A stretch of 64,000 bases of DNA from Mya arenaria (Eukaryota; Mollusca; Bivalvia; Myida; Myidae): NCBI RefSeq assembly GCF_026914265.1, contig NC_069132.1, positions 68,896,993 to 68,960,992 of the forward strand, in the 5' to 3' direction. Below, piece by piece: positions 4,232 to 62,455 of the stretch. Position numbers and translations under genes: made by a program. Numbering within the stretch: position 1 is the first letter of the stretch; every line of letters begins with the position of its first letter. The notes beneath the pieces are model-generated. The model ran no database searches and had not been told where the DNA came from. It was given only the letters and a program-made list of their open reading frames with translations.

Positions 4232-4412
4232 ATGAGTCGCCGAGCGAGTTTGTTCGCAAAACAGAACCCGGAAGAAAAGAAACCAAAAGGTGTCCGCTTT
4301 CCAGACGAGCTTGTTTTTCTTGACAACATAAAAGAAAATGACGTGCATGCCCTTGGTTCCATGCTAAGGAGAGCAAGTCTACAAGTGGATATAAGTGCAA
4401 TTAACGACGCAG
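4232..4412 (+). CDS. Copy 1 exon 1: PP1-docking and phosphosite region
   Basis: It encodes residues 1-60 plus the first base of codon 61. It holds the RVxF-type motif KGVRF (19-23) and two RRASL sites (serines 6 and 49). The donor is cag|gtgggt. The same exon recurs, whole or damaged, in all seven copies. Confidence 0.85.
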
Positions 4413-7400
4413 GTGGGTAATAATTTAGACATTCCAAAATGGTTTGAGTTTAGAAAAGCGGCTGATGCCATGTCAAAAGTCTACAAGTGGAATCAGTGCA
4501 GTCAACGATGCAGGTGGTTTCAGTTCTTAGAATGTATAATTTTGTGCTGGGTGCTATATGTTAACAGTCAAAAATAGTGGCCATTAGCCATATTAACGAC
4601 GCAGGTGAAAAAATGTTGACTAAAGTTCTGAGAGCCAAGTTAATAAGATTCAGTTTTAAAGTAGACATGACGCGGATGGGTTCGGCATAACTTTGAATTG
4701 TTTGATTGGGAAAATAAATATAAATATTGACGATACACATAAACAGTAGTTTGGTGTGTATATCAAATTATATTGTATGGACTCCGGAAAAATAATGATG
4801 AAACATTCTGTGTTGATTCCAGGTCTGACGCCGCTGCACCAGGCGGTTCTGGACGGGAACGAGGCGGCCGTCCGACTGCTCGTGGCTCACGGGGCGACGG
4901 TCAACAAACAGGACGAGGATTCTTGGACGCCGCTGCACGCTGCATGCGCAGAGGGACACGCAGATATAGTCAAGTAAGATAACACTGTCCGGAATGCCTT
5001 GTCCTAAGATGGTCATGAAAAAAAATGTTTTAATATTGACTTTAGTTGATGGTGAACAAGCCTGACACATGTGGCCTCTGGCACATCAGTCTTCCCAATT
5101 GTTTTTATAAAATATACATTCTCTCTTAGCAGTCTGTGAACGAGCGCGATCAGGACCCGTGTTTAATTGATAATAAATATTGTAATACAGTCCTGATATA
5201 AATCGGGTCCATATCCCCAAGGTCAAGACTATAAACTAGTACGTTTAAACTGTAGTTCTTATGTAAGGTCCATGTCCAGTATTATAACCTAATAATTTAG
5301 TGAATGAAATCTATGTGTAAATTGCTTCATTTGATATTGTCTCTCGAATTGGCACCATGGAATTGGATACCTTCTGTCTGTGTTTCACGTCAGGAAATCG
5401 CTGAAAATAAGAAAACCAAAATCTCTTCAGATCAATTGGCTGTCTTGCTTTAGGTTTTCTTGGAAAGCTGAACAACCAAGTATAATATGTCTGGCAGACT
5501 GACTGATGATTTGTCATAGCACTTAAAAGAATATCCTGATAGAACCTTTGACTCAAGCTGTCTCTTGGTATTATCGATGGTGCGAAACAAGTGTTTTTGA
5601 ACCATTTTGTCTTTTCCAACATTAATATTTCTGGTGCAATATAAATTTTGAACGTCATTTGACTTTAAAAAATCTACTTTCAATAGGTCTATGAACACGG
5701 TCCGTTTAAGCTTATTGTTATAAATGAATGCTTAATTACTTTGAAATAAATCGAGCAAAAATGCTTTACTGACTACTGCATCTTGTTGTTTCAGGACATT
5801 TCTTTCACGTATAATGTCTTGCTATATTAGGATTTATTGTGTTAGTCTAGTGTATTAACATGCTATTGTTGCTGCAAATTCCCAAGAACATGTTAATACT
5901 GGCCTTTTTGCTCGTCTACTAGTACATCCACTAGTACTTCGTAAATTAGCTGATAAAAGCATGATCAAAACGCCTTTGTCATTGTGGGGGAACTGACACC
6001 GGATATAGTTCAAAAAGTGATAAATCGATTTGAAGCGTTTGATTGTTACACATGGTATGTTTATCTATCAGTTTTGTAGTTTATGGTGATATTCTGTATA
6101 TCCAAATCGAAGATTTTCGAATAGCTTGATCCTATGCAATATGATGGGAATGTGTCTCCTCTTTTGTATATTAATAGCACAATTCTCGCCGAAAGCTGCA
6201 TGATCGCTCAAAAGTGTTCACTAATGTGGTACGATTTCAAACATAAAACAACAAATAGAAAATAAGAATAAAAACTGAATCGAGCTATTTCATTGTAATT
6301 ACAGCACCTAGTATTGTTTAATATATCAATACGAAATAGTTTCGTAGAGACAGTCATACTTTTTGATGACCTGAAGGTGTACTGGGGATAGATGAAGCAA
6401 ATAAATAACTCAACAGGGGATATCTATTAAGTGGACTGAGGATAGAAACGATGTATTTAGAATAACGAGTCTGTGATAATGACGGTTTTATACCTTTACG
6501 CAAGCTCGGGGAAATTGTTCGATGTTGTCCATATCGAGGGATGAGAACAAAAAATGTTGTTATTTTTGTATCTGTTTGTACTTAAAACTGTTTCATTCAT
6601 ATAGATTAGTTAACCATGATGTGCTTTTCACAAGCATCAACGTTCGAGTCGCAAATATTAAAATATTTGAAATATGCCATAATCTGATTTATCGAGGAAC
6701 ACAAAACATATGGCCGTAGAATTTATGTGGTGTTTGCTATACATATATATAGAATTGCTTTGTAAATCAAGTAGGTGAATCTATAAGTAAATCTATCAGG
6801 TTCCAGATTATATCCTTGTACTCTTGAAAGCACTGCAATAACAACATCTGTACTGCATTGTTATTCTGAAAGTAAAGTGATTTTGTACGTAATTGAGCAA
6901 GAGTCGAATAGTTGGTAAGGAAGATGATATTAAAGGTTGTTGTCCTGTACCTATCAGCTTCCGGTAAAATATGATACGTCTTGCTACAACTTGCAAACTA
7001 CCTGGATACTAAATTAGTATTAAACGTGCGTATGATAAATATTTATTAATTTTTATGAAGACTGGAGTAAACGAATTAGACATACATGTATATTGTATAT
7101 AAACAGTGTTACTATCATTTTTGTCCCATATTACATGCTATCCCCAGTACACATTTCTCAACTTTGAAACTATCATCAGTACATAATACGGCTATCTCCA
7201 GTACAGAACATTTCTAAGGGCATATAGTTTCACGTTTAAATGTAACATTGCCAGTTCTTACAATAAAATTAGTATAGCTTATGCTTGTAAAATCGTTCGA
7301 TTCAGATTTTTTTATTCGATATATTTCCTAAAAATAACAATACGTCGAAATTCTGTGAGTTTTGAGGTGATCATCTCACATTTGAAGTTTCATATTTCAT

Positions 7401-10054
7401 GGCCTGCTAAATCGTAAGCATTATAAAGTACACCATAATCCAAATTATCATTCAGCTATTACTTCAAACACTTGTTTCATTTGTGGATACGGTAGATAAA
7501 CGTTAACACAGCAAGATCTTACCTCTGGTAAAGAAAAAGAACTGCATATTTGTCTGTTTACTTATCATTTTTTGAGCTATATCCGGTGTCCGTTTCCCCA
7601 CACCGTTTGTGCAACGATTAGAAAGCAAATTTTCGGCAATGTTTCGATTTAATTGATTGATGTGAAACCGATGCAAACTGTAAAAGTATGTATCCTTTGT
7701 GAATGTACCAGCCTTTCCGTCCTGATAGCTCAGTGATAGCGCGTTCACTTCAAGTCGTGGATTCAAACCTCGGCCGCATCAAACCAAAATGAGTTAAAAT
7801 ATGGTAACAGTAGCTCCCTTGCCTAGCGCTGGAAAATTGCTGTATTTAGTACCGGTTCAACCCAGGAAAGTTGTATACCATGTATCGGTGCTTTTACCAA
7901 GCGCGTTAAAGAACCGAAAAGTTTAATTGCAAAGAGCACCCGGACTTTATTGCAATCACTTCCATCTAAATTCACTAATGGCATTTAAACACAATTTTTG
8001 ACTTGAGGTCAAGCCACAATGCAACCAAAAGCACGGGCAGACATTATTAACCCAAATAAACAAGCAATGCGTCCGCCTCTTAGTTGCAAGTTCCATGTTA
8101 GAGAGTGGCAGTAGGCTTTCTCTGATGTTTGCAGTGGATTGACTGGGTACAGCTGCACTTGATTCGGTTTCATTGTGTGTATTTGGGCGGAGAAAAAGTT
8201 CCTATCATTTAATGCTGTAAAAAACCTTCAAATTCGCATTTGCAAAGAGTAGTTTCACGGCTAAAATGCATTGCAATTCATACTAGTTAGCTTTGACGAA
8301 TCAAGTTGCTCAAAGTTGTAATCTCAAAACGTTAAGGCACTAATATAACTTCAGCTCCAAATATATAGCCACAGCTCTATTTTAGAGCTACATCTGTAGG
8401 CATAAATGAAGAACAACATCAGTCGTAAAATTACAGATGTAGCTATATTTGCTATACCTATCAACTGCAACAGTCTGGTGTAAATGTTCGGCTATAGCGG
8501 TATTTTTGGCGACAAAAGAATAGCTACAGTTGTATTTTATAGCTGTACCAATACAATGAAATACAATTGCAGCTATAATGTACAACTATAGCTATAAACG
8601 CATAAATGTTATTCAATTTGAAAGGTCACTGTTATAATATCGTGACTTTTTAGCCACATGGAACGCCATAGTAGGCACCATGTCTCAGTACTTCTTGTAA
8701 CGTTGTGTCTCTTGTTCGATGTTTGTTTAGCCTTAGTGCTTACACCTTTAAACAGCGTTTTGATCTGGGGATCTTGTCACGTTGTGTCTCTTGTTTGATT
8801 TTTGTTTAGTCTTGGTGCTTTTATATTGAAGCAGGGTTTTGATCTGGGTATGTTGTAACGATGTGTCTCTTGTTTTGAGTTTGTTTCGCCTTGTTGTTGG
8901 TACCTTTAAACAGGGTTTTGGTATCGGCATCTTGTAATGTCATGTCTCTTGTTTGATGTTTGTTTAGTCTTGGTGTTTATATCTTGAAGCAGGGTTTGGT
9001 CTGGGTATGTTGTAACGTTGTGTTTCTTGTTTGGTGTTTGTTTAGCCTTTATGTTTGTACATTTAAACAGGGTTTAGCCTTGATGTTTATATTGCATTTC
9101 TGTTCATTGAGTTACCGGTAGTGCCCACAAAACCAAAGAAATTCTGGAAGACTGAACATTTTACAGGAAAACGGTAACATGAAAAAACTTCTGGCCATCA
9201 TTATCTAGTTTATATTTTGAAAGAAGGGCTTATTGACAAGAACTTTTATCTTTATGTTGTTCATGAATTACATGACATTTGAGCTGTACATAAACATTCC
9301 CAAGATGTCCATCTGTTGTTTCAACCTTCTATTTAAATATAGTTAGCAAGAACACTCCCTTTATTCATGAAATATGCCAATCTCTCGGTCTTTCTTATGG
9401 GGCCTACTCATTAAGCTTTTTAAATTAAATTTTAAACTTATTGGAACATTGCCTTTATGTAAATTGATTTTAAGACATTTTACATAGTTGAGTACCAAAG
9501 CTATGAAAGTAACAAGAACGTTGTATATATATAATGAATACATTTGGACAGATTTAATGAAAAAAAAGTAAAATATTAGTATTAATTATGACAAAATACC
9601 CCAAGTTTTATGCTTAGAAGTTAGACCAGCAAAAATAATATTAAGTACAAGTATGTGCTGTTTCAGGTTTCTACATCTATGTAGGCTTACCGGTCTAAGG
9701 AGGATTTAAGATGCTGAGCAAACTTGTTTGAGAAAAAAAGAATACCATATAATCACTATGTTCATCTGTTCTCTCAGTTTTCCACTTGAAAGATGAACTG
9801 CCAAGCATCGTTGGATAGTAGTTTTCCTGAATTAATATTCCTGACAATTATAAAATTGTTGTTCCAGGTTTCTACTTGAAAGTGGGGCTGACAAGAACAT
9901 CTTGACAGACGAAGGCGAGCGACCCCTGGATCTGGTGGAACCGTCTGACCTCCCAACCATCCGGGTCATGCTAAGTGACGTTAAACCAAATACTGATAAC
10001 CAATCAGAAGACGAGTTGGACGATGACGTCACTGATAATGATGTCACTGGATGA
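4232..10054 (+). CDS. PPP1R27-like ankyrin protein, copy 1 (intact, 3 coding exons)
   Basis: Coding exons are 4232-4412, 4823-4973 and 9868-10054 (519 nt, 172 residues plus stop). All introns are GT-AG, with phases 1 and 2. Domains: basic N-terminus with RRASL (residues 3-7); KGVRF at 19-23 followed by PDELVFLD, as in PPP1R27 and MYPT proteins; LRRASL at 45-50; ankyrin repeats at about 62-94 and 95-127, each with a TPLH core (63-66, 96-99); a partial third repeat to about 149; an acidic tail (SEDELDDDVTDNDVTG). The family binds the catalytic subunit of protein phosphatase 1 through RVxF. Human PPP1R27, about 154 residues, has the same order, so a PP1 regulatory or scaffold role is inferred. 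The ATG is the first in its exon; a pyrimidine-rich tract ending in CAG at 4201-4203 suggests a preceding non-coding exon. Intron 2 carries a TIR element, a SINE and a minisatellite. It could instead belong to a lineage-specific MYPT-like group. Confidence 0.85.
4461..4605 (+). repeat. Exon 1-tail duplicates in intron 1 of copy 1
   Basis: Two decayed repeats of the end of exon 1 (agtctacaagtgg ... aacgacgcaggtg) lie in intron 1 at about 4461-4514 and 4580-4606. Each keeps the gcag|gtg donor-like end. The same repeats occur at about 14717-14870, 36718-36865 and 54640-54695 in other copies. Confidence 0.65.
4823..4973 (+). CDS. Copy 1 exon 2: first ankyrin repeat
   Basis: The acceptor is ttccag and the donor caa|gtaaga. 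It encodes residues 61-111: ankyrin repeat 1 and the first half of repeat 2, both with TPLH cores. The exon is conspicuously more GC-rich than its surroundings. At 151 nt it is not a multiple of three, so skipping it would shift the frame. Confidence 0.87.
5980..7605. mobile_element. Non-autonomous TIR DNA transposon, 5-bp TSD (Transib-like?), copy 1 intron 2
   Basis: It is flanked by TTTGT on both sides (5975-5979, 7606-7610), where copy 2 has a single uninterrupted site (cctttgtgcaacg). The left end reads CATTGTGGGGGAACTGACAC. The inverted right end matches through GACACCGGATATAG. Inside, tactggggatag motifs recur in both orientations near the ends. No transposase was seen. A 5-bp TSD with ends near CACTGTG fits Transib, but this is inferred from ends alone. 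Confidence 0.7.
7716..7875 (+). mobile_element. tRNA-derived SINE, copy 1 intron 2
   Basis: It has a box A-like tagctcagtgatagc and a box B-like gtggattcaaacc within a tRNA-like head, followed by a non-tRNA body (accggttcaacccagg). The head has lost a few bases in the variable region compared with the copy at 39957. The 3' limit is uncertain. Confidence 0.6.
8350..8605. repeat. AGCTGTAGCT-rich repeat, copy 1 intron 2
   Basis: It is built of scattered direct and inverted copies of agctgtagct/tatagctgtag around a core (caacagtctgatgtaa-like). Relatives lie at about 16300-16490, 23790-24035, 40615-40865 and 56310-56525, always just before the minisatellite, so it belongs to the ancestral intron. 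Confidence 0.5.
8694..9095. repeat. 79-bp minisatellite, about 5 units, copy 1 intron 2
   Basis: Units start near 8694, 8773, 8852, 8931 and 9009 with cttgtaacgttgtgtctctt-like sequence and contain a gggttttgg-type core. They are more diverged than in copies 5 and 6. Confidence 0.75.
9770..9830 (+). repeat. Decayed duplicate of exon 3 start (copy 1)
   Basis: A pyrimidine tract plus AG is followed by tccacttgaaag, aligning with the true exon 3 start tctacttgaaag about 90 bases downstream. Equivalents lie at about 17055, 49437 and 57563. In exon 3's frame the copy 2 version reads FPLERGTAKHS beside FLLESGADKNI. Confidence 0.5.
9868..10054 (+). CDS. Copy 1 exon 3: ankyrin repeat 2 end, partial repeat 3, acidic tail
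   Basis: The acceptor is gttccag. The exon completes Lys111 and encodes FLLESGADKNILTDEG, a degenerate third repeat (ERPLDLVEPSDLPTIRVML) and an Asp/Glu-rich tail ending DVTG, then TGA. It is near-identical in copies 2, 3, 5 and 6, which suggests recent duplication or gene conversion, or constraint. Confidence 0.87.
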
Positions 10055-14522: not shown

Positions 14523-17368
14523 TTGAGTCGCCGAGCGAGTTTGTTCGCAAAACAGACCCCAAGTCTACAGGTGGATATCAGTGCAGTTAACGACGCAGGT
14601 GGGTAAGATTTCAGACATGAAAAAAATGTAAAATATAGCACTGAGTGCCATGTGCTATGGATTGGATAACAGCGCTGTTAATGTCACAGTTTGGGTTGAG
14701 TTTAGTATAGCAACTAGTGCCATGTTAACAGTCTACAAGTGGTATCCAGAGCAGTCAATGTCGCAGGTGGTTTCAGGTTTGCTTAAAATGTAGAAAAAAA
14801 ATAAACGCTGGGTGCCATGTGTTAACAATCAAGAATAGTAGCTATTAGCCATATTAACGACGCAGGTGTAATAATAATAATAAGATTCAGTTAAGAAGTA
14901 GATACGCCGCGCGTGGATTCGGCATAGCTTTGAATTGTTTGATTGGGAAGATAGATATAATTATTGATGAGACACATAAACAGTAGTTTGATGTGTATAT
15001 CACATCATATGGTATGGACTGCGGAAAAATAATGATAAAACATTATGTGTTGTTTCCAGGTCTGACGCCGCTGCACCAGGCGGTTCTGGACGGAAACGAG
15101 GCGGCCGTCCGACTGTTCGTGGCTCACGGGTCGACGGTAAACAAACAGGACGAGGATTCCTGGACACCGCTGCACGCCGCATGCGCAGACGGACACGTAG
15201 ATATACTCAGGTAAGCTATCACTGTCCAGAATGCTTTGTATATTGAATTTAGTTGATGATGATCAAGCCTGGCACATGTGCCCCCCCCCCAGACACTTTG
15301 GTTTCCCCCAAAACATATAATCCAACATTTTCTCTTAACAGTATGTCAACGAGCGCGATCAGGAACCGTGTATAATAGATAATAAATATCGCGATCAGGA
15401 ACCGTGTATAATAGATGATCAATATTGTAATATAGTCCTGAATCATGATCAAGCTAGAAAAAACAATCTATAAATGAGGTCCATATCCCATATATGGCCA
15501 AAACTATAATCCAGTACGTTTGAACTAAGTTTTTATGTAAGGCCCATGTCCAGTGTTATTGATTAAAAAAAATAGTACATGAAATCTATGTGTAAATTGC
15601 TCCCAAATTGGCACCCTGGAATTGGATACGTCCTGTCTGTGTTTCACGTCAGGAAAGCAGAACACCAAAATGTTTGTCAGATCGATCTTGCATTAGGTTC
15701 TCTTGAAAGCTGGACAACCAAGTATAATTGGACTGCCAGTCTGACTGGTGATTTGTCATAGCACTTAAAATAATACACTGATAAAACCTTTTACTTAAGC
15801 TGTCTCTTAGTGTTATCGATGGTGCGGAACAAGTGTTTTTGAGCCATATTGTCTTTTTCAACACTATTTCTTCTGGTCGTAATATATCATGTTACTTTAA
15901 ACAATTTCCTTTTAATATGTCTATGAACACGGTAAGTTTGATATTATTTCTATAGATGAATTAATTACTGTAAGAAAACACCAACAAACATGCCTTTCCT
16001 ACACATGCATCTTGTTGTTTCAGGTTATCTCTTTTGCGTATAATATCTAGTTTTTATGATTTATTGCGTTTGTCTGGTGTATTAACATACTCTATTTGCT
16101 GCAAATTCCCAGGAACATGTTGTAATTGCTCGGTTTGTACGTCTACTTGTACTTACGCTCGTAAATTAGCTTATAAAAGCACAATCAAAATGCCTTTGTG
16201 CAACGATGAGAAAGTCAATTTTCGGCAACTCAATGTTTGGTTTTAGTTGGTTGATGTGAAAGTGACGCAGACTTCAGCTGTAAAAATATATAATAGAACA
16301 CTGCTATATTCTAAAGCCACATCTGTAGCCACAAATGAAGAACATCAGTAGTAAAATTACACCTGTAGCTATATTTGCTACACCTATCAACTGCAACAGT
16401 CTGATGTAATTTTACGCTGTATTTTATAGCTGTAGCAACGAGTTGAAATACAATAGCAGGTATAATGTAAGTTATAACTATTAACACATAAATGTTATTG
16501 AATTTGAAAGGTCACTGTGGTAATATCGTGACTTTTTAGCCAGGTGGAACGCCAAAGTTAGCACTCTGATCCATTACATCTTGTAACGTTGTGTCTCTTG
16601 TTTGATGTTTGTTTAGATTTCGTGTTTATACCTTTAAACAGGGTTTTGGTCTCGGCATCTTGTAACGTTGTGTCTCTTGTCAAATGTTTGTTTAGAGTTG
16701 GTGTTTATACCTTTAAACAGGGTTTTGGTCTGGGCATCTTGTAACGTTGTGTCTCTTGTTTGGTGTTTTTTAATGTTGGTGCTTATACCTTGAAACGGGG
16801 TTTTGGTCAGGGCATCTTGTAACGTTGTGACTCTTGTTTGATATTTGTTTGCCTTGGGGTTTGTACCCCATTATATTCAATTGTGTTACTGGTAGTGCCC
16901 ACAACACCAAAGAACATTCTGGTAGACTGAACCTTTTGCAGGAATCCAATAACATGAAAAAACCTCTGGCCATCATAATGTAGTTTTTATGATGCTGAGC
17001 AAACTTGTTTTAGAAATAAATGTACCACATAATCACTATGATCATCTGTTCTCTCAGATTTCCACTTGAAAGAGGAACTGCCAAGCATAGTCAGATAAAT
17101 GGTTTCAGGTTTCGATGTTTAGTAGGTTTCCTGTAGCGAAATGAATTAACAATCCTGACAATTATGAATCTGTTATTCCAGGTTTCTACTTGAAAGTGGG
17201 GCTGACAAGAACATCTTGACAGACGAAGGCGAGCGACCCCTGGATCTGGTGGAACCGTCTGACCTCCCAACCATCCGGGTCATGCTAAGTGACGTGAAAC
17301 CAAATACTGATAACCAATCAGAAGACGAGTTGTACGATGACGTCACTGATAATGATGTCACTGGATGA
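14523..17368 (+). pseudogene. PPP1R27-like copy 2 (start lost, exon 1 shortened in frame)
   Basis: The exon-like blocks are 14523-14598, 15060-15210 and 17182-17368. Exon 1 has TTG where the other copies have ATG. It jumps from LFAKQTP directly to SLQVDISAVNDAG, an in-frame loss of 105 nt that removes the KGVRF docking motif and the LRRASL site. Exons 2 and 3 are fully open with good splice sites (ttccag, gtaagc, ttccag), with changes such as LLVAHGA to LFVAHGS and DDDV to YDDV. Either it is a pseudogene or it starts elsewhere and makes an ankyrin-only protein without PP1 docking. Intron 2 lacks the 1.6 kb TIR element and the SINE seen in copies 1 and 5. Confidence 0.7.
16580..16865. repeat. 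79-bp minisatellite, about 4 units, copy 2 intron 2
   Basis: Units start at about 16580, 16659, 16738 and 16816, with the same sequence as in the other copies. Confidence 0.75.
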
Positions 17369-17787
17369 CATAGTTATATGTCTCGCGTTTTGGTGCTATT
17401 GTAAATAACTAATCAATTTGTTAAAACTCATAGTTCATCATATGTGTTTATGGTACTCGATATGAAGAACTGGACAATTTTATTGTGTATGACTTTATCA
17501 TGGCCATATAAAAAAATTCATTACGCTGCAAAATGCCTGCATCGTCATTGATGTGTACATATTAATCAATCATTCAAATACGGTATGATAAAGGGTGTTT
17601 TAAAAGTATTAATAGGCACTGAATAAGCCAATGTTACAGAAAATTGCAGTGTTTATATAAATCAGGGTGTTTCCAACTGTCTAGAATTTAAACATCATCT
17701 AAGAAATCAATCCTTTTTTTCTAAGCTTACGCACACGATCTAGTTTTGGTCACCATGTAGATTGCAAGTGTGTATTCAATTTCGGTC

Positions 17788-17793
17788 AATAAA
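17788..17793 (+). promoter_or_regulatory. Possible poly(A) signal, copy 2
   Basis: AATAAA in ggtcaataaaagccaca, about 420 bases after the stop. It is shared with the flanks of copies 3 and 5. Confidence 0.35.
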
Positions 17794-17966
17794 AGCCACA
17801 TTTAACCAGTCCATTTGCCATGTTGGTAAAATTTGCCAACATGGATTGGTTTTATGCATGAACCAATACCAATTTGGCAATCGGCTTGCACTCTCAGAAC
17901 TATAAACCACCATTTATTATAAATCATTTTTATAAGATCGATAATTTCAATTACTATGCCATTTAA

Positions 17967-17970
<4 letters not shown>

Positions 17971-18050
<80 letters not shown>
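17971..18050. repeat. (AT)40 microsatellite
   Basis: An uninterrupted run of 80 bases of alternating A and T. It is absent from the equivalent position after copies 1, 3, 5 and 6. Confidence 0.98.
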
Positions 18051-18054
<4 letters not shown>

Positions 18055-21000: not shown

Positions 21001-23122
21001 TTCTTGATATTTATTAAGTATGTAAGGAATTTCCTCAAATTTTGTTACATCTTGGAATGGGACGGGGTCTATGATATTGTTAAATAATCCGTAACTTACA
21101 TATAATGTCATTATTGTAGACAAATGTTTTTCTTTTGTATTATTCTGAAATATACCAATTATACGTGACCTAGCAAAACAAGGACATTGCAAAGACTGTC
21201 AGTTTTTGAGTTTCAGAAACTAAACAACCGCTTGAAGCTTTTTGTAGTAATATGTAACATTATTAATGGCATACGCTATCTCTCTTTATCTGTGAAACTT
21301 TGTTTGCAGCATTAAGTTTGTGAACAATGTAAGGAACATTAGCTTTGTGAACATTCTCAGTAACTGAAGCAGCGGATAAGTAGACTGCCAATTATCAGTT
21401 TGCATATTGCTTTGTTGTTGATAACCGGAATACAACTTGGAAAACAATGAACGATGCCGACAATGGTCCAAACTTATAAACCTCGTAAATGAAGAACACT
21501 TTAGACGCTTGATTTTATTAAATACGAACCATTAACCTATTTTAGATGTTGAAAAGTTTCACCGATCTCGACATCACTGATGAATGCCCAAGGTATTCGC
21601 TGGGAGTTGTAATGCATATTAGACAGGAACACGGTCAAATCAGTTTCATGATGAGGGAATATACTTGAATAGAACGTTATAGTATCGAAGTACCCCAGGA
21701 CGTTAATGGAATTCTTATACTGTGAACTCTTTATTTTCCAGTTGTATCTATAACACTGTTGTTTTCAACAATGAGTCGCCGAGCGAGTTTGTTCGCAAAA
21801 CAGAACCCGGAAGAAAAGAAACCAAAATGTGTCCGCTTTCCAGACGAGCTTGTCTTTCTTGACAACATAAAAGAGAATGACGTGCATGCTCTTGGATCCA
21901 TGCTAAGGAGAGCAAGTCTACAAGTGGACATCAGTGCAATTAACGACGCAGGTGGGTCAGAGTTTAGACATTACAAAATGTAGAATATAGCAATGAGTGC
22001 CATATGCTAAGGATTGGATAACAGCGTTGTTAATGGCAGTTTAGAAGTAGATACACCGCGGTTGGATTCGGCATAGTTTGGAATTGTTTGATTGGGAAAC
22101 ATATATAATTATTGATGAGACACATAAACAGTAGTTTGATGTATGTCAACGAGCGCGATCAGGAACCGTGTTTAATAGATTATAAATATAATAATTTAGT
22201 CCTAAATCATGATCAAACGTGAAAAAACACACAACTTAAATCAGGTTCAGATCCCCCTGGTCAAAACTATAAACTAGTACGTTTGAACAAAGCTCTTGTG
22301 TGAGGCCAAATTCCAGTATTATTACCTACGGATTTAGCGAATGAAATCTATGGGTAAATTGCTCAATTGGATAATAAGAATGTCTCTCACAAATTGGCAC
22401 CCTGGAATTGGATACGTCCTGTCTGTGTTTCACGTCAGGACATCGCTGGAAAGCAGAACACCAGAATCTCTGTCAGATCGATTGGCTATATTGCTTTAGG
22501 TTCTCTTTGAAAGTTAAACAACCAAGCTTTATATGACGGCAATACCGACTGATAATTTGTCATAGCACTTAAAAGAATATCCTATTAGAATCTTTGACTC
22601 AATCTGTCTCTTAGTATTATCGATGGTGCGGAATAAGTGATTTTGAGCCATATTGTCTCCTTCAACATAAATACTTCTGGTTGCAATACATGTATGCCAT
22701 GTGACTTTAAAATATCTACTTTCAATAGGTCTATGCACACGGTCCGATTTAGCTTATTTCTATAAATATGCAAAATTACTTTGAAATAAATCCAACAAAA
22801 ATGCTTTTCCGACTTCTGCACTTGTTGTTTGAGGATATTTCTTTCACGTATAATGTCTAGTTATATTATGATTTATTGTGTTAGTCTAGTGTATTCACAT
22901 GCTATTGCTGCTGCAAATTCCCAAGAACATGTTAATACTGCCCTTTTTGTTCGTCTACTAGTACATCCACTCGTAAATTAGCTGATAAAAGCATGATCAA
23001 AATGCCTTTGAGCAACTAAGACAAAGTTAATTTTCGGTAAATCAACGCTTCGATTGAATTAGTTGATGAGAAAGCGATGCAAACTGTACACGTATGGATC
23101 CTCCGCGAAAGTGCCCGCCTCA

Positions 23123-23290
23123 CCGCCTGATAGCTCAGTGGTAGTGCGATCGCTTCGGGTGCGGAAGGTCGGGGGTTCAACCCCGGCCGCGTCAAACCGA
23201 AATACGCTTAAATATGGTACCAGTTGCGCTCGGCATTAGAAGGGTATTGCTGGGAAAATGGTGTTCTCAATACTGGTTCAACCCAGGAAA
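23123..23290 (+). mobile_element. tRNA-derived SINE, copy 3 intron 2 (best preserved head)
   Basis: The head has tagctcagtggtag (box A), an anticodon-arm-like cgcttcgggtgcgg and box B ggggttcaacccc. The cttcggg loop equals that of tRNA-Pro(CGG), so a proline tRNA origin is likely. There is no proper acceptor stem, so it is not a working tRNA gene. Confidence 0.65.
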
Positions 23291-28020: not shown

Positions 28021-28039
28021 CTGGCTGGGCTGTTCCATT

Positions 28040-28145: not shown

Positions 28146-29320
28146 GTCTTATCCCATTTCATTCCAATGTGTTACTGGTAGTTACAGCAGACCGAAGAAC
28201 ACTCTGGTAGACTGAACCTTTTGCAGGAAAAGAATTTCATGAAAATAATAATTCTGGCCATCATTATGTGTTTCTTATTTGAAAGCAGGGCTTATTGACA
28301 AGAAATTTAACTTTATGTTTTTGTTCATGAATTACATGACATTTGAGCCGAACAAAAACATTCCGAAGATGTTCATTTGTTGTTTGACCCTTCTATTGAA
28401 ATAGCAAGTTAGCAAGGACACTCCCTTTATTGATGGAATTAAACCATCTCTTGATCTTCTTATAGGGTCCATCATTTAAGCGACTTAAATGAAATTTTCA
28501 ACTTATTGGAACATTGTCTTTTTTGTAAGTTGATTTTTAGGACATTGTAGAATAGTTGTACACCAAAGCTATAATGACAAGCAAAAATGTGGTATATATA
28601 ATGAATACCTTTGCACAGAGTTGATGAAAATTAGAGTGGATTTAAAATAGTTTTAGGTTTCGATGTTGAAGGAAAGGAAATAAACAATCATGACTATTAT
28701 AATTTATCTGTTGTTACAGATTTCTACTTGAAAGTGGGGCTGACAAAAACATTCTGACAGACGAAGGCGAGAGACCCCTGGATCTCGTGGAACCGTCTGA
28801 CCTCCCAACCATCCGGGTCATGCTCAGTGACGCGAAACCAAATACTGAAAACCAATCAGAAGACGAGTTGGACGATGACGTCACTGATACTGATGTCACT
28901 AGATGACATAGATATATGTCTCGCGTTTTGGTGCTATTGTAAATAACTGATCAATTTGTGAAAACTCATAATTCATCATATGTGTTTATTTGACCCGATA
29001 TGAAGACCTGGACACTTTTTATTGTGTATGACTTTATCATGGTCACATTTAAAAACTCATATTTCGCTGCAAAATGCCTGCATCAATATTGCTGCATACA
29101 CATTGATCATTCATTCAAATACGGTATGATAAAAGGTTTTAAAAGTATTTAACAGAAATTGAATAAGCCAATGTTACAGAAATTGCATTGTGAATATAAA
29201 TCAGGGTATTTTCAACTGTCTAGAATTTAAATATCATCAAAGAATCCTCTTTTTCTAAGCTTACGCACAATACTAGGCTTTGTCATCATGTTGATTGCAA
29301 GTGTATATTTAATTTTGGTC

Positions 29321-36489: not shown

Positions 36490-36670
36490 ATGAGCCGCCG
36501 AGCGAGTTTGTTCGCTAAGCAGAACCCGGAAGAAAAGAAACCAAAAGGTGTCCGTTTTCCAGACGAGCTTGTCTTTCTTGATAACATAAAAGAGAATGAC
36601 GTGCATGCTCTTGGATCCAAGCTAAGAAGAGCAAGTCTACAAGTGGATATCAGTGCAATTAATGACGCAG
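36490..36670 (+). CDS. Copy 5 exon 1
   Basis: It is open and full length (181 nt), with the cag|gtgggt donor. It is preceded by a conserved pyrimidine tract ending in CAG at about 36461, as in copy 1. Confidence 0.78.
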
Positions 36671-39600
36671 GTGGGTAAGAATTTAGACATGCCAAAATGG
36701 TTTGAGTTAAGTATAGCAGCTGATGCCATGTTAAAAGTCTACAAGTGGAACAAATGCAGTCAAGGACGCAGGTGGTTTCAGTTCTTAGAATGTCGAATTA
36801 AGCGCTGGGGGCCATGTTTTAACGGTCAAAAATAGTGGCTATTAGCCATATTAACGACGCAGGTGAAAGAATGTTGAATATAGCGCTGAGAGCCATGTTA
36901 ATAAGATTCAGTTTTGAAATAGACACGACGCGGATGGGTTCGGCATAGCTTGGAAGTGTTTGATTGCGAAAATAAGTTAATTTTTGATGAGACACGTAAA
37001 CAGTAGTTTGATGTGTATATCACATCATATTGTATGGACTCCGGAAAAATAATGATAAAACATTCTGTGTTGTTTCCAGGTCTGACGCCGCTGCACCAGG
37101 CGGTTCTGGATGGGAACGAGGCGGCCGTGCTCGTGGCTCACGGGGTGGCGGTCAACAAACTGGACGAGGATTCTTGGACGCCGCTGCACGCCGCATGTGC
37201 AGAGGGACACGCAGATATAGTCAAGTAAGATAACACTGTCCGGAATGCCTTGTCCTAAGATGATCCTGAAAAAAAAAATCGTTTTAATATTAAATTTAGT
37301 TGATCATGATCAAGCCTGACACATGTGGCCCAGGCACATCAGTCTTCCCCAAAAAAAACATATAATACCACATTCTCTCTTAACAGTCTGTGAACGAGCG
37401 CGATCAGGACCCGTGTTTAATAGATAATAAATATTGTAATACAGACCTGATATAAATCGGGTCCATATCCCCCAGGCAAGACTATAAACTAGTACGTTTG
37501 AACTGTAGTTCTTATGTAAGGTCCATGTCCAGTATTATTACGTAAGGATTTGATGTATGAAATATATGGGTAAATTGCTTGGATAATAAGAATGTCTCTC
37601 ACAAATTGGCACCATGGAATTGGATAAGTCCTGTCTGTGTTTCACGTCAGGAAATCGCTGAAAAGCAGAAAACCAAAATCTCTTCAGATCAATTGGCTGT
37701 CTTGCTTTAGGTTTTCTTGGAAAGCTAAACAACCAAGTATAATATGTCGGGCAGACTGACTGATGATTTGTCATAGCACTTAAAAGAATATCCTGATAGA
37801 ACCTTTGACTCAAGCTGTCTCTTGGTATTATCGATGGTGCGGAACAAGTGTTTTTGAACCATGTTGTCTTTTCTAACATTAACATTTCTGGTGTAGTATA
37901 TGTACGTCATGTGACTTTAAAAAATCTACTTTCAATAGGTCTATGAACACGGTCCGTTTTAGCTTATTGTTATAGACGAATGCTAAATAAATCCAACAAA
38001 CATGCTTTACTGACTACTGCATCTTGTTGTTTCAGGACATTTCTTTCACGTATAATGTCTGGTAATTATGATTTATTGTGTTAGTCTAGTGTATTATCAT
38101 GTTATTGTTGGTGCAAATTCCCAAAACAATGTTAATACTGGCCTTTTTGCTCGTCTACTAGTACATCCACTCGTAAATTAGCTGATAAAAGCATGATCAA
38201 AATGCCTTTGTCATTGTGGGGGAACGGACACCGGATATAGTTCAAAAAGTGATAAATCGATAAGTGTTTGATTGTGACACCTGGTAAGTTTTTCTATCAG
38301 TTTTTGTGTTTCATGGTGATATATATCAAAATCGAAGAGTTTCGAATAGCCTCATCCTATGCAATATAGGAATATGATGGAAATGTGTTTCCTCTTTTGC
38401 ATATTAATAGCACAATTCTCGCCGAAAGTTGCATGATCGCTCACAAATGTTCATTAATGTGGTACGATTTCAAATATAAAACAACAAATAGAAAATAAAA
38501 ATAAAAACTGAATTGAGCGATTTCATTGTAATTACAACATCCAGTATTGTGTAATATATCAATACGAAATATTTTGTTGTTACGGAGATATTCATACTTT
38601 TTGATGACCTGATGGATGAAGCAAATACATAACTGAACAGGGGATAGCTATTAAGTGGACTGAGGATAGTAACGATGTATTTAGAATAACGAGTCTGTGG
38701 TAATGATTACGGCTTTTTACGGCAAGCTTGGGGGGAAATTGTTCGATGTTGTCCATATCGAGGGATGAGAGCAAAAAATGTTGTTGTTTTTTATCGGTAT
38801 GTACTTAAAACTGTTTCATTCATATAGATTAGTTAACCCTGATGTGTTTTTCACAAGCATCAACGTTCGAGTTGCAAATATTAAAATATTTGAAATAAGC
38901 CATAATCTGATTTATTGAGGAACACAAAACATATGGCCGTAGATTTTATGTGGTGTTTGCTATACATATATATGGTATTGCTTTGTAAATCAAGTAGGTG
39001 AATCTAGTAGTAAATCTATCAGGTGCCAGATTATATCCTTGTACTCATGAAATCACTGTTTGCAATAACAACATCGGTACTGCATTGTTATTCTGAAAGT
39101 TAAGTAATTGTGTACGTAATTCAACAAGAGTCGAATAGTTGGTAAGGAAGATGATATTAAAGGTTGTTGCCTTGGACCTATCAGCCTCTGGTTAAATGTG
39201 ATACGTCTCGCTACAACTTGCAAACTACTTGGATACTAAATTAGACGTGCGTATGATAAATATTTATTAATTTTTATGAAGACTGGAGTAAACGAAAAAG
39301 TTCCAATTAGACATACATGTATAGTGTACATGTATATAAACAGTGTTACTATCATATTTTGTCCCATTTTACATGCTATCCCCAGTACACAATTCTCAAC
39401 TTTGTAACTATCATCAGTACATAATACGGCTATCTCCAGTACAGTACAGTGAACATTTTAAGGGCATATCTTTAACAGTTTAAATGTTCATTGCCAGTTC
39501 TTACAATAAAATTAGTTTAGCTCATGCTTATAAAATCGTTCGATTTATTATTTATTCGATCTATTTCCTAAAAATAACAATATTTGTCGAAATTCTGTGA

Positions 39601-48600: not shown

Positions 48601-49753
48601 TCAGCATTTTTCAATGTTTCTGCATCACCACCACTGGTGGATATCAAAGAATTTAGTCTTGAAAGAAATGTGTGCTGGTGTATGCGTTCAAACTCATTTT
48701 GTTAAACCAATAGAATGAAGATCTAATTTATTTAGAGAACTATATTAGTGAACAGGGCCGAGGTATTCAATTGTGCCATTACATTAAGTTGTTCGCTACC
48801 AACACTCACGGACATATAAACCATACATCTTTGGTTAAAAGAATGTAAATTTTAATTATAAAAAATTAAAGTTAATGATATGAAATGTATGAGATAAATA
48901 CACTGAGAAAGAAAGTCTAACCTATTACTGTATCGATCTAAGTAAAGTCAGATTCAGACTTATTTGTTATTAAAAAAAAAACACAAATAGAGTATTTGTT
49001 TTGTTAATTTTTGCCACTGATCACTGGAGCTTCAAAATTGTTATTTACTAAATTACTGTAGAATCTGTCAAATGAAAGAAGACTTTACCCCACCCACTAA
49101 GAATTAATGACATTTCCAATTAGTTTCTCATTAGGGCTTTTTTAAAACTATTTTTATATTTTATTAAAATACAATAAGTATAAAAATAACACTTACACAC
49201 AAATAAGTGGTAAAAGTTTGCTCCTCATTCTGTCTTTGGACTAACATATCTCTTGGTTATTTAAATATCTTCTTGGTCGGCCATGATGGACTATTTTCTT
49301 ACGACCCGTATTATATCCGAGGCCATATCTTGATACTAGCCGAGGAGTTCCGATTGGGCTTACCGGTCTGAGGAGATGCTGAGCAAACGTATTTTAGGAA
49401 AAAGAATACCATATCATCACTATGTCAAACTGTTCTTCTCAGGTTTCCACTTAAAAGAGGAACTGCCAAGCATAGTCAGATTAATGATTTCAGGTTACGA
49501 TGTTTAGTAGGTTTCCTGTAGCGAATGGAATTAACAATCCTGACACATATGAATCTGTTGTTCCAGGTTTCTAATTGAAAGTCGGGCTGACAAGAACATC
49601 TTGACAGACGAAGGCGAGCGACCCCTGGATCTCGTGGAACCGTCTGACCTCCCAACCATCCGGGTCATGCTAAGTGACGTAAAACCAAATACCGATAACC
49701 AATCAGAAGACGAGTTGGACGATGACGTCACTGATAATGATGTCACTGGATGA
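36490..49753 (+). CDS. PPP1R27-like ankyrin protein, copy 5 (open, 2-residue deletion)
   Basis: Exons are 36490-36670, 37080-37224 and 49567-49753. All splice sites match copy 1, and the frame is open throughout (170 residues). Exon 1 keeps RRASL, KGVRF and LRRASL, with KLRR in place of MLRR. Exon 2 is six bases shorter: AAVRLLVAHG has become AAVLVAHG, removing two residues from the inner helix of ankyrin repeat 1, which may destabilise it. Exon 3 reads FLIESRADKN in place of FLLESGADKN, replacing a conserved loop glycine. Intron 2 is 12.3 kb because of a LINE, a 4.4 kb TIR element and an expanded minisatellite. The gene is expressible in principle, but its fold may be weakened. Confidence 0.75.
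37080..37224 (+). CDS. Copy 5 exon 2 (two codons shorter)
   Basis: It encodes LTPLHQAVLDGNEAAV, then LVAHGVAVNKLDEDSW and the second TPLH core. The loss is exactly six bases, so the frame is kept. The donor is caa|gtaaga. Confidence 0.78.
38212..39849. mobile_element. Same TIR element at the equivalent site in copy 5 intron 2
   Basis: It sits at the same position as 5980-7605, with the same TTTGT duplication (38207-38211, 39850-39854) and near-identical interior. The ends read CATTGTGGGGGAACGGACAC and, inverted, CACTCTGGGGGAACGGACAC. It is an inherited copy from block duplication rather than a second insertion. Confidence 0.75.
39957..40125 (+). mobile_element. tRNA-derived SINE, copy 5 intron 2
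   Basis: It has tagctcagtggtagcgcg, cacttcgagtgcgaaaggtc and box B tggattcaaacc, followed by the same body as the SINE at 7716. It is the counterpart of the copy 1 SINE. Confidence 0.62.
40950..41002. repeat. 79-bp minisatellite, first part before the LINE, copy 5
   Basis: This is the beginning of one unit, interrupted at gttgcttaaacc by the LINE insertion. The array resumes at 43027. Confidence 0.65.
41360..41860 (+). pseudogene. LINE reverse transcriptase fragment (palm domain)
   Basis: This is a 166-codon open segment with the catalytic YADD at residues 81-84, KGVPQG at 28-33, a thumb-side KTKVVVFG and KYLG at the primer-grip region. The real coding line continues upstream in another frame (LEENQAGFRAK, with a stop after it, at about 41149-41190) and downstream after a frameshift. 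Confidence 0.85.
42375..42797 (+). pseudogene. LINE ORF2 C-terminal fragment with Cys motif
   Basis: This is a 140-codon open segment ending in a stop just before the LINE 3' UTR. YCHICRSDHGDEYHYLLVC is a C-x2-C-x8-H-x4-C pattern typical of the C-terminus of several LINE clades. Confidence 0.8.
43027..44360. repeat. 79-bp minisatellite, about 17 units, copy 5 intron 2
   Basis: This is the largest array of the family. Adjacent units are near-identical, with alternating variants (tccgggcat or tccggccat; ataccttgaagcag or atacctttaagcag), pointing to recent expansion of multi-unit blocks. Confidence 0.85.
45702..46016. mobile_element. 315-bp MITE nested in the 4.4 kb element
   Basis: The left end tgcaccagacaattgtaacc and the inverted right end tgcaccagtcaattgtaccc pair, and are followed on both sides by a ccccaggtc(t/c)gggg palindrome. 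The interior is unusually G/C-rich with homopolymer C runs. Non-coding. Confidence 0.75.
46126..46845 (-). pseudogene. Decayed coding-like stretch in the 4.4 kb TIR element
   Basis: On the minus strand, successive frames give protein-like segments: PNCQAKYSKRHKDIAKETGN onward, NEDLNLYGNLKPYMEIKRQK, then LGTEMKVKMGAKPNLSLVLH. Frame changes separate them. I do not recognise the family. It may be a degenerate transposase or chance. Confidence 0.25.
49567..49753 (+). CDS. Copy 5 exon 3
   Basis: It is open to TGA at 49751-49753 and has an acceptor ttccag. Differences from copy 1 are Leu114 to Ile and Gly117 to Arg (copy 1 numbering). Confidence 0.78.
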
Positions 49754-54362: not shown

Positions 54363-57300
54363 ATGAGTCGCCGATCGAGTTTGTTCGCAAAACAGATCCC
54401 GGGAGAAAAGAAACCAAAGGGTGTCTGCTTTCCAGACGAGCTTGTCTTTCTTGACAAGATATAGGAGAACCACGTGCATGCTTAGGAGGGCAAGTCTACA
54501 GGTGGATATCAGTGCAATTAACGACGCAGGTAGGTAAGATTTTAGACATGACAAAATGTAAAATAAAGCAGTGAGTGCCAAAAGCTAAGGATTGTATAAA
54601 ACCGCTGTTAATGTCACAGTTCTAGTTAAGTATAGCAGCTGGTTCCATGTTAACTGTCTACAAGTGGTAACCAGTGCAGTCAACGTTGCAGGTGGTTTCA
54701 GTTTTGCTTAGAATGTAGAATTAAACTCTGGGCGCCATGTGTTAACAACCAAAAACGGTTGATATTAGCGCAAGTGTAAGAATGTTGAATATGGCGTTGA
54801 AAGCCATGTTAATAAGATTCAGTTTAGAAGTAGATACGCCGCGCGTGGGTTCGGCATAGCTGAGAATTGTTCGATTGGGAAAATAAATATAATTATTGAA
54901 GAGACACATAAACAGTAGTTTGGTGTGTATATCACATCAAAATGTATGGACTTCGGAAAAAAATAATGATAAAACATTATGTGCTGTTTCCAGGTCTGAC
55001 GCCGCTGCACCATGCGGTTCTGGGTGGGAATGAAGCGGCCGTCCGACTGCTCGTGGCTCACGGGGTGACGGTCAACAAACATGAAGAGGATTCCTGGACA
55101 CCGCTGCACGCCGCATGCGCAGAGTGACACGCAGATATAGTCAGGTTACACTGTCCAGAATGCCTTGTCCTTAAAATGGTCCTGAAGAAAATCCGTTTTA
55201 AGTTTTGTGCTGTTCTTCCATGTTTCTTGTTTGTGATTTTATGTTCTATGTGCTTGGCGCTTACCCAGTGCCATTAAACCGGGTTTATGTTTAAACTTTT
55301 TGCTACTGAGCTTGTTTCTGTAGCTTTTCGCATAATATTGAATTTAGTTCATGATGATCAAGCCTGACACATGTGGCCGCCCAGACACTTCGATTTTCCT
55401 CAAAAATATATAATACCACGTTCTCTCTTAACAGTCTGTCTACGAGCGCGATCAGGAACCGTGTATAATAGATAATAAATATTGTAATATAGTCCTGAAT
55501 CATGAACAAACTAGAAAAACTTTTGTAAAGTTCATGTCCAGTATTATTAATTTAAAAATTTAGTAAATGAAATCTACGGGTAAATTGCTTCATTGGATGA
55601 TAAGAATGTCTCTCGCAAATTGGCACCCTGGAATTGGATACGTCCTGTCTGTGCTTCACGTCAGGAATACGCTGGAAAGCAGGACACCAAAATGTTTGTC
55701 ATATCGATCTTGCAGTAGGTTCTCTTGGAAAGCTGAACAACTAAGTATAATTTTAAGACCAGACTGACTGATGATTTGTCACAGCACTTAAATGAACATC
55801 CTGATAAAACCTTTGACTTAAGCTGTCTCTTAGTATTATTAGTGGTGCGGAACAAGTAATTTTGAGCCATATTGTCTTTTTAACACTATATTTTCTGGTC
55901 GTAATATATCATGTTACTTTAAAAAATCTACTATTAATATGTCTATGAGGACGGTCCGTTTTATATTATTTCTATAGATGAATTAATAACTGTGAAAACA
56001 AACATGCCTTTCCTACCCATGCATCTTGTTGTTTCATCTCTTTCACGTATAATGTCTAGATTTTATGATTTATTGCGTTTGTCTGGTGTATTTATAACCT
56101 TGTTTGCTGCAAATTCCCAAATGCATGTTATAACTGCTCGTTGTGTATGTCTATTAGTACTTACACTCGTTAATAAACTGATAAAAGCACAATCAAAATG
56201 AATTTGTGCAACGATGAGAAAGTCAATTTTCGGTAAATCAATGTTTGGTTTTAATTGGTTGATGTGAAAGCGACGCAAACTTCAGCTGTAAAAATATATA
56301 ATTGAACACTGCTATATTCTAAAGCGACATCTGTCGCCACAAATGAAGAACATCAGTAGTAAAATTACAGTTGTAGCTGTATTTGCTACACTTGCAACAG
56401 TCTGATGTAATTATAAGGCTGTAACTGAATTTCTGGCGACAAAAGAAAGCTAGATCTGTATTTCATAGCTGTAGCAACAAGTTGAAATACAATACCAGCT
56501 ATAGTGTACAGCTATATCTATTAACACATCAATGTTATTGAATTTGAAAGGTCACTGTTGTAATATCGTGACTTTTTAGCCAGGTGGAACGCCAAAGTTA
56601 GCACCCTGATCCATTACATCTTGTAACGTTGTGTCTCTTGTTTGATGTTTGTTTAGTCTTGGTGCTTATACCTTGAAGCAGGGTTTTGGTCTGGGCATCT
56701 TGTAACGTTGTGTCTCTTGTTTGATGTTTGTTTAGTCTTGGTGCTTATACCTTGAAGCAGGGTTTTGGTCCGGGCATCTTGTAACGTTGTGTCTCTTGTT
56801 TGATGTTTGTTTAGTCTTGGTGTTTATACCTTGAAGCAGGGTTTTGGTCCGGGCATCTTGTAACGTTGTGTTTCTTGTTTGATGTTTGTTTAGTCTTGGT
56901 GCTTATACCTTGAAGCAGGGTTTTGGTCCGGGCATCTTGTAACGTTGTGTTTCTTGTTTGATGTTTGTTTAGTCTTGGTGCTTATACCTTGAAGCAGGGT
57001 TTTGGTCCGGGCATCTTGTAACGTTGTGTCTCTTGTTTGATGTTTGTTTAGTCTTGGTGCTTATACCTTGAAGCAGGGTTTTGGTCCGGGCATCTTGTAA
57101 CGTTGTGTTTCTTGTTTGATGTTTGTTTAGTCTTGGTGTTTATACCTTGAAGCAGGGTTTTGGTCCGGGCATCTTGTAACGTTGTGTTTCTTGTTTGATG
57201 TTTGTTTAGTCTTGGTGCTTATACCTTGAAGCAGGGTTTTGGTCTGGGCATCTTGTAACGTTGTGTCTCTTGTTTGGTGTTTGCTAAATTTTGGTGCTTA

Positions 57301-57880
57301 TACCTTGAAACGGGGTTTTGGTCAGAGCATCTTGTAACGTTGTGTCTCTTGTTTGATTTTTAATTGCCTTGTAGTTTGTATCCCATTACATTCCATTGTG
57401 TTACTGATAGTGCCAAGAAGACCAAAGAACAATCTGGTAGAACCTTTTGCAGGAATACAATTACATGAAAAAACTTCTGGCCATCATTATATAGTTTGTA
57501 TGATGCTGAGAAAACTTGTTTTAGAAAAAAAGAATACCATATAATCACTATGTTCGTCTGTTCTCTCAGATTCCCACTTGAAAGGGGAATTCCCAAGCAT
57601 AGTCAGACCAATGGTTTCAGGTTTCGATGTTTAGTAGTTTTCCTGTAGCGAATGGAATTAACAATCCTGACACATATGAATCTGATGTTCCAGGTTTCTA
57701 CTTGAAAGTGGGGCTGACAAGAACATCTTGACAGACGAAGGCGAGCGACCCCTGGATCTGGTGGAACCGTCTGACCTCCCAACCATCCGGGTCATACTAA
57801 GTGAATTGAAACCAAATACAGGTAACCAATCAGAAGACGAGTTGGACGATGACGTCACTAATAATGATTTCACTGGCTGA
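54363..57880 (+). pseudogene. PPP1R27-like copy 6 (pseudogene)
   Basis: Exon-like blocks are 54363-54529, 54994-55144 and 57694-57880. Exon 1 starts MSRRSSLFAKQIPGEKKPKG, has VCF in place of VRF, then a stop just after FLDKI and a 14-nt deletion. Exon 2 has an in-frame TGA in place of the Gly codon of AEGH and a weak donor (gttaca). Exon 3 is open, ending DDDVTNNDFTG. The upstream tract that ends in CAG in the other copies is disrupted here. Intron 1, intron 2 and the upstream region resemble copy 2, its apparent sister. Confidence 0.85.
56620..57380. repeat. 79-bp minisatellite, about 10 units, copy 6 intron 2
   Basis: The spacing from 56620 to 57331 equals nine periods of 79. Central units are almost identical and the outer units are diverged, as expected from expansion at the centre. 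Confidence 0.85.
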
Positions 57881-61578: not shown

Positions 61579-61759
61579 ATGAGTCGCCGAGCGAGTTTGC
61601 TCGCAAAACAAATCCCGGAAGAAAAGAAACCAAAGGGTGTCCGCTTTCCAGACGAGCTTGTCTTTCTTGACAACATAAAAGAGAATGACGTGCATGCCCT
61701 TGGGTCCATGCTAAGGAGAGCAAGTCTACAAGTGGATATCAGTGCAATTAACGTTGCAG
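61579..61759 (+). CDS. Copy 7 exon 1
   Basis: It is open and full length (181 nt), with donor cag|gtgggt. Its last residues are INVAG where copy 1 has INDAG. Confidence 0.78.
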
Positions 61760-62455
61760 GTGGGTAAGAGTTTAGACATGACATAATATATAATATAGCA
61801 TTTAGTGCCATGCTAAGGCACGCTGGTCTTTAAATAAATATCAGCGCGGTTAAAGACAAAGTGCGTGTTAATTCATGTAATCAAAAAGTGGTTACCAGCG
61901 CAGTGAGCGTCGCAGTGGTATTATTGTTTAGCGATGTATGTATAATATAGCGATTGTTACCATGCTAAGGAAACCTGTCTACACGAGTATATCAGCGTAA
62001 TTAACGATGCATGGGAGTCAAATTATTTAGTTAATTATGTCTAAGACCGGAGGCCCATGGTTATTAGAATTAGTATCCAATTATATATATCAATGTTGTA
62101 AACAACGCCGGTGAGTTCGGCATAACTTGGAATGGTTCCATCGGCAAATATAGCACTTGAGAAAACACATAAACAGTAAGTTGTTTATGTTTTGTATCAT
62201 TACAATTTCCCTTGCGTGGAACCCGATGTATAAATATAAACGAATTTGATAGACTTTTGAATAAATTTGTTACTAAATAATAATGCGTTATATGTCGTTA
62301 TCAGGTTTGACGCCGCTGCACCAGGCGGTTCTGGATGGGAACGAGGCGGCCGTACGACTGCTCGTGGCTCACGGAGCGACGGTCAACAAACAGGACGAGG
62401 ATTCTTGGACGCCGTTGCACGCCGCATGCGCAGAGGGACACGCGGACATAGCCAA
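61579..62455 (+). CDS. PPP1R27-like ankyrin protein, copy 7 (partial, runs off window)
   Basis: Exon 1 (61579-61759) and exon 2 (62305-62455) are intact and in phase. The protein starts MSRRASLLAKQIPEEKKPKG and keeps KGVRF, LRRASL and both TPLH cores, ending GHADIAK at the exon 2 donor (caa|gtaaag). Exon 3 is not in the window. Intron 2 is interrupted at about 62974 by an integrase-bearing element that continues past the end. Intron 1 differs from copies 1 and 5 and matches copy 4. If exon 3 is present downstream this copy could be functional. Confidence 0.78.
61798..62015 (+). repeat. Exon 1-tail duplicates in intron 1 of copy 7
   Basis: Three decayed units of the exon 1 end lie in tandem at about 61806-61850, 61880-61920 and 61959-62015. 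The first and last keep the ccatgctaagg core and the attaacga-like end. Confidence 0.6.
62305..62455 (+). CDS. Copy 7 exon 2
   Basis: It is open and full length (151 nt), with acceptor tatcag. The protein matches copy 1 except DIAK for DIVK. Confidence 0.8.

Follow-up and report, generated by a model that had tools for sequence, protein, structure and literature searches.

The PPP1R27-like array and its genes

The stretch of DNA described here, referred to as the window, comprises 64,000 nucleotides of the clam Mya arenaria (C11:68896993-68960992), taken from a genome of 1,216,080,610 bases in 18 contigs that was searched as a whole. It holds most of an eight-copy tandem array of a small PPP1R27-like ankyrin gene, with copy 0 outside at the left and copies 1 to 7 inside. 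Searches with the exon peptides of copy 1 (tblastn) recovered one three-exon gene as seven copy units in the window, all on the plus strand, and confirmed the original prediction that these run from 4232, where exon 1 of copy 1 begins, to 62455, where exon 2 of copy 7 ends. E-values range from 3.6e-37 to 7.9e-15 for exon 1 (3.9e-5 for a remnant in copy 2), from 1.7e-32 to 4.8e-20 for exon 2 and, in the window, from 5.1e-32 to 8.7e-29 for exon 3; a chance origin of these matches is excluded. The array had been expected to continue past both ends. It does so on the left, where the intact copy 0 lies 4.8 kb from the window (exon 1 at C11:68892230), but on the right it contributes only the third exon of copy 7.

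The coding exons measure 181, 151 and 187 bases, the last including the stop codon, and are separated by one phase-1 and one phase-2 intron. GT-AG splice sites are present in eight sequences, those of copies 0, 1, 5 and 7 in this array and in a second one described below; for copy 7 of the present array the sites covered are those other than the exon 3 acceptor. Exon 3, first located with ankyrin consensus strings composed for this analysis, lies about 2–12 kb downstream of exon 2 in the window. In the same four copies of both arrays a TTTCAG-type or TTTCCAG-type acceptor lies a short way ahead of the ATG, which suggests an untranslated first exon. The spliced product has 172 amino acids, with a KGVRF (RVxF-type) motif, ankyrin repeats and an acidic tail. 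A repeated block that follows exon 2 (5340-5639) was rejected as coding sequence, having stops in all three plus-strand frames; on the minus strand it contains a 117-amino-acid stop-to-stop frame. An Rfam search of the window gave no match.

Several features speak for the proposed kinship with PPP1R27 and for a PP1-docking-type motif. KGVRF stands at residue 19 in copies 1 and 7 and fits the RVxF pattern, Pfam Ank families match exons 1 and 2, the part scanned, with a best E of 2.2e-15, and copy 1 aligns with a provisional human PPP1R27 sequence at 38% identity over 141 amino acids, nearly its full length (E 7e-40), motif included. Vertebrate PPP1R27 (DYSFIP1, toonin) is likewise small, carries an N-terminal RVxF-type motif directly before its ankyrin repeats and is collinear with the clam protein from the first residue. 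It differs in having 154 rather than 172 amino acids, the acidic C-terminal tail of the clam protein being longer, and in being encoded by a single gene rather than several tandem copies. An RVxF motif followed by ankyrin repeats is also present in MYPT/PPP1R12 and PPP1R16, which are several times longer and are likened here by description rather than by sequence. Three points count against the assignment: the name depends on a provisional human sequence, that sequence also aligns with two further ankyrin loci of the clam at 34–35% over 131 amino acids, and the best 60 of 449 hits from a PDB sequence search were ankyrins and designed repeat proteins and included no PP1 subunit. Judged from sequence, the PPP1R27-like name is backed without proof of orthology. 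An expansion of this gene in bivalves goes unmentioned in the titles or abstract openings listed for PPP1R27 (30 of 42 open-licence papers) and Dysfip1 (7), and searches narrowed to bivalves gave no paper.

Genome-wide, exon 3 has 12 matches (all 12 candidates scored), seven in the window's array and five in the second. Exons 1 and 2 have at least 51 matches among the best 150 of 373 candidates, 27 in the two arrays and 24 elsewhere. By our count by eye within these 150, array matches have at least 52% identity and all others at most 46%; the best-scoring ones outside, at C11:38.09, C11:38.08 and C17:46.88 Mb, reach 35–38%. No close relative was found outside the two arrays among the scored matches for either search. 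Two of the outside loci, L033 (C11:38091575-38094850) and L034 (C11:38082723-38085998), lie about 9 kb apart, appear near-identical by eye and have a KITF motif ahead of their repeats; they may form another small tandem group of PP1-docking ankyrin genes.

Table 1. Positions of the gene copies and of the transposon end; window coordinates unless a contig is given
Feature	Position	Strand	Remarks
Copy 1 exon 1	4232..4412	+	start codon, KGVRF motif; intact
Copy 1 exon 2	4823..4973	+	ankyrin repeats; intact; tblastn match from 4822
Copy 1 exon 3	9868..10054	+	last ankyrin repeat, acidic tail, stop; intact; match from 9869
Copy 2 exon 1 remnant	14523..14600	+	ATG changed to TTG; 105-bp deletion takes docking motif
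Copy 2 exon 2	15060..15210	+	open; tblastn match from 15059
Copy 2 exon 3	17182..17368	+	open; tblastn match from 17183
Copy 3 exon 1	21771..21951	+	KCVRF at docking-motif position
Copy 3 deletion junction	22141..22142	+	about 375 bp (copy-1 positions 4758-5131) gone, exon 2 included
Copy 3 exon 3, matched part	28720..28900	+	tblastn match from 28721
Copy 4 exon 1	32237..32421	+	frameshifted
Copy 4 exon 2	33066..33203	+	internal deletion; tblastn match from 33069
Copy 5 exon 1	36490..36670	+	
Copy 5 exon 2	37080..37224	+	in-frame 6-bp deletion; tblastn match from 37079
Copy 5 exon 3	49567..49753	+	open; match from 49568; array A twin has 1-bp frameshift
Copy 6 exon 1	54363..54531	+	in-frame stop and frameshift
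Copy 6 exon 2	54994..55144	+	internal TGA; tblastn match from 54993
Copy 6 exon 3, matched part	57694..57877	+	tblastn match from 57695
Copy 7 exon 1	61579..61759	+	intact
Copy 7 exon 2	62305..62455	+	intact; tblastn match from 62304
Copy 7 exon 3, matched part, outside window	C11:68973627-68973809	+	
Ginger1-like DNA transposon, left end	62974..64000	+	in copy 7 intron 2; absent at matching array A site

Decay and purifying selection

The mixture of intact, altered and dead copies that had been proposed is borne out. Two of the seven window copies (1 and 7) are intact, one (5) is open but altered and four (2, 3, 4 and 6) are broken; in both arrays, copies 0, 1 and 7 have a full 172-amino-acid open reading frame (ORF) with its stop. 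In copy 5, exon 2 is shorter by two codons and there are additional replacements. Upstream of the exon 1 remnant of copy 2 a stop at 14463 is reached without an in-frame ATG, and neither tblastn in the window nor the genome-wide exon 3 search found an exon 3 for copy 4. Copies 2, 3, 4 and 6 are pseudogenes and copy 5 is decaying. Because the main lesions of copies 2, 4 and 6 are common to both arrays, much of this decay predates the separation of the two chromosomal blocks in which the arrays lie. We envision an array that would have expanded through tandem duplication and is now shedding members. We see here an ordinary tandem gene family in which birth and death are clear. It resembles other such families in its same-strand tandem copies, its mix of intact and dead members and the purifying selection on the survivors, and structurally there is no difference; only the gene concerned differs.

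Both kinds of comparison, among copies and between arrays, point to selection on the protein. In 18 between-copy comparisons drawn from copies 0, 1, 5 and 7 of both arrays (copy 5 of the second array left out), the ratio of nonsynonymous to synonymous divergence (dN/dS; Nei-Gojobori method, our own script) is 0.04–0.14 at dS of 0.10–0.34. Between the arrays, the intact copies 0, 1 and 7 differ by 13 synonymous and no nonsynonymous changes, whereas decayed exons differ by 7 synonymous and 12 nonsynonymous changes (Fisher p = 0.00045). The decayed set consists of five exons compared gap-free and in whole codons, with every change in a residue-altering codon counted as nonsynonymous. Gaps exclude exons 2 and 3 of copy 5 and the first exon of copy 4 from it, and a length not divisible by three excludes the first exon of copy 6. 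Exon 2 of copy 6 and exon 3 of copy 2 are likewise excluded, having no counterpart in the second array; copy 7 exon 3 was counted in the intact-copy comparison only. Copies 0, 1 and 7 are held by purifying selection. Low dN/dS and the lack of a close relative elsewhere among the scored matches formed the preset test for a maintained local family, and both were found. The idea that all copies are non-functional relics, with a low dN/dS inherited from an earlier single gene, draws on the four broken copies of the window, but three copies retain a complete ORF, from start to stop, in each of the two blocks and have gained only synonymous changes since the blocks split. We regard it as very improbable.

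The similarity of the exons relative to their flanks had been attributed to constraint or conversion, and our data uphold the first. For copies 0, 1 and 5, intron divergence is 0.07–0.14, dS 0.10–0.22 and dN 0.005–0.021; dS is slightly lower than intron divergence for copy 0 against copy 1 and higher for copy 5. Because dS is close to intron divergence in these copies, the similarity of the exons reflects constraint on the protein, and conversion is unneeded. Gene conversion in place of selection could account for flanks that are less alike than exons, but it should depress dS and dN jointly, contrary to the values just given, and it fits poorly with the different ratios of synonymous to nonsynonymous change in intact and decayed copies. 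It is an improbable explanation of the array. It has some footing in copy 7, the most diverged of the four (introns 0.29–0.39, dS 0.23–0.34), where an intron divergence above dS leaves room for minor exchange and to that extent tells against constraint as the full account. A promoter-level mosaic between copies was also considered and dropped: distances in the upstream alignments (MAFFT) are inflated by insertions, and blastn gives 80–84% upstream of copies 0 and 1.

A second array in a duplicated block

Beyond what the original prediction contained, the array recurs on the same chromosome 0.97 Mb upstream (array A, C11:67923839-67971153), collinear with the array of the window (array B). The two are substituted at 1,132 of 47,044 aligned columns, or 2.4%, with a range of 0.9–3.8% over 12 aligned stretches whose small overlaps were kept in the count. 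Array A is without the segment corresponding to window 15546-31951, and hence without copy 3 and copy 2 exon 3. Also missing there are about 1 kb holding exon 2 of copy 6 and, from the second intron of copy 5, about 4 kb. Twin pairs were found at 67.67 and 68.60 Mb (93% identity), 67.85 and 68.81 Mb (97%), 67.970-67.975 and 68.973-68.978 Mb (99%), 68.30 and 69.39 Mb (97–98%, in pieces), 68.35 and 69.42 Mb and 68.40 and 69.48 Mb (both 97%), the outermost being 68.4324 and 69.5078 Mb (95–96%). With the best 39–40 candidates scored per search, no twin was found for 67.50 or 68.45 Mb; apart from its own position, a piece at 68.55 Mb had a single match, on C7 (99%). Since the pairs run far beyond the arrays, they define two consecutive blocks in the same orientation, each roughly 0.8–0.9 Mb, at about C11:67.6-68.4 and 68.5-69.5 Mb and with their junction falling between 68.432 and 68.600 Mb.

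The arrays also differ by a DNA transposon of 12,538 bp in intron 2 of copy 7, extending from window position 62974 to C11:68972503; it might disturb this copy, which we count among the intact ones. It is flanked on both sides by a CCGG target duplication, has TGTAA ends, is identical over the first 69 bp at its termini (by eye) and encodes rve (E 4.9e-10) and OTU (E 2.2e-8) domains in a single ORF. Ginger1 elements are defined by a 4-bp CCGG target duplication, TGTNR termini and terminal inverted repeats of 40–270 bp, and their integrase has a C-terminal OTU or Ulp1 protease domain (PMC2836005). We call the element Ginger1-like because its length exceeds the 2.6–7 kb of the elements described in 2010, which is a range of examples and not a defining limit (PMC2836005). 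At least 29 further exact copies of a 5,001-base internal piece lie on C1 to C10, among the best 29 of 912 candidates (its own place on C11 is not one of them), which suggests very recent spread.

We favor a model in which the second array represents the other haplotype of this locus, which the assembly would have retained in tandem; we consider this probable. The site of the Ginger1-like insertion is empty in array A, the arrays diverge by only a few percent, and they have the main lesions of copies 2, 4 and 6 in common. The assembly paper describes a reference of 1.22 Gb in 17 scaffolds matching 17 chromosomes, made with FALCON-Unzip and purge_haplotigs owing to high heterozygosity (PMC10663159). 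The Vertebrate Genomes Project paper states that partial false duplications at contig boundaries survive purge_haplotigs (PMC8081667), and another study traces false duplications mainly to heterotype duplications and mentions one of about 1.9 Mb (PMC9516828). The present case resembles heterotype false duplications in its collinear, same-orientation twin, its percent-level divergence, the heterozygous genome and the assembly method, and differs in that no gap between the twins was found within the 40 kb inspected (PMC9516828, PMC8081667). Under this model the haploid count is probably 7–8 copies, three of them intact.

A number of observations weigh against the model. No N run occurs in the 40 kb inspected near a possible junction (C11:68405001-68445000; the junction itself was not located). 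A difference of 2.4% between alleles counts as normal in bivalves by general knowledge; the papers cited here give no figure for it. In a control with proteasome genes, sorted by eye into 13 groups, four groups had a twin on the same chromosome; the identities were 86, 90, 94 and 97% and two of the four twins were inverted, so that no clear genome-wide signal emerges. The same sources list gaps between twins as a mark of false duplications, report few of these in FALCON-Unzip assemblies (k-mer duplication below 0.7% in hummingbird and 1.1% in emu; PMC9516828), place 7–24% of false duplications on one scaffold (PMC9516828, PMC8081667) and describe one common class whose pieces are often only about read length (PMC8081667).

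Some of these points would suit a real, recent tandem segmental duplication of roughly 0.8–0.9 Mb, which would give the haploid genome 15 copies, six of them intact. Such an event is consistent with collinear, same-orientation blocks whose limits are bracketed by the outer searches (twins from 67.67 to 68.43 Mb, none found at 67.50 and 68.45 Mb), with the absence of an N run and with the low false-duplication rate reported for FALCON-Unzip assemblies (PMC9516828). However, two haplotypes in a heterozygous bivalve would be expected to show this degree of divergence together with such indel and copy-number differences, and the assembly method is known to retain partial duplications at contig boundaries (PMC8081667). 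We consider a real duplication possible but unlikely. The original prediction had named an artificially repeated assembly as a threat to its claim: at the megabase level this probably applies, in the form of the twin block, and within the array it does not, since introns differ by about 7–41% between copies. An eight-copy PPP1R27-like array with intact copies under selection, the others decaying and a twin that is the alternate haplotype is the explanation we prefer as a whole, with a probability of about 0.68.

Elsewhere in the assembly, two ankyrin loci on C4, L067 (C4:2983001-2984500) and L068 (C4:4032401-4033900), lie 1.05 Mb apart and are 98% identical. This pair, a single case picked for its matching scores, is compatible with retained haplotypes at other places.

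The introns hold further repeats. A 79-bp minisatellite is present in intron 2 of copy 1 (8693-9075, about 5 units), copy 2 (16577-16850, about 3.5), copy 5 (43025-44356, about 17) and copy 6 (56617-57361, about 9), and its unit and the Ginger1-like termini have TGTAACGTTGT in common (by eye). The 12-kb intron 2 of copy 5 also contains reverse transcriptase remains at 41357-41860 (RVT_1, E 8e-19); the next frame, 42324-42797, has no Pfam match. A short tandem region at 27774-27960 is built of 35- and 81-bp units containing CCCATATGGG.

Putative function and implications

By analogy with the PP1 regulators it resembles, the clam protein may dock on and inhibit PP1. The N-terminal KGVRF would dock on the catalytic subunit of PP1, while substrate access would be shaped, or the enzyme inhibited, by the ankyrin repeats together with the acidic tail. 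Extra copies would raise dosage or divide expression. We tentatively raise the possibility of a clam-lineage expansion that provides at least three near-identical PP1-inhibitor-like proteins per haplotype under strong purifying selection, with haplotypes that differ in copy number, array A being without copy 3. If the megabase duplication were real, the six intact genes kept would amount to a dosage-type adaptation of PP1 control.

Retained haplotypes may double gene counts here and perhaps elsewhere in the assembly. Work on transmissible clam cancer, for which calls of copy number are important, has this genome as its reference. For the family itself, the locus offers a natural series of intact, decaying and dead PP1-regulator-like copies on which selection has been measured.

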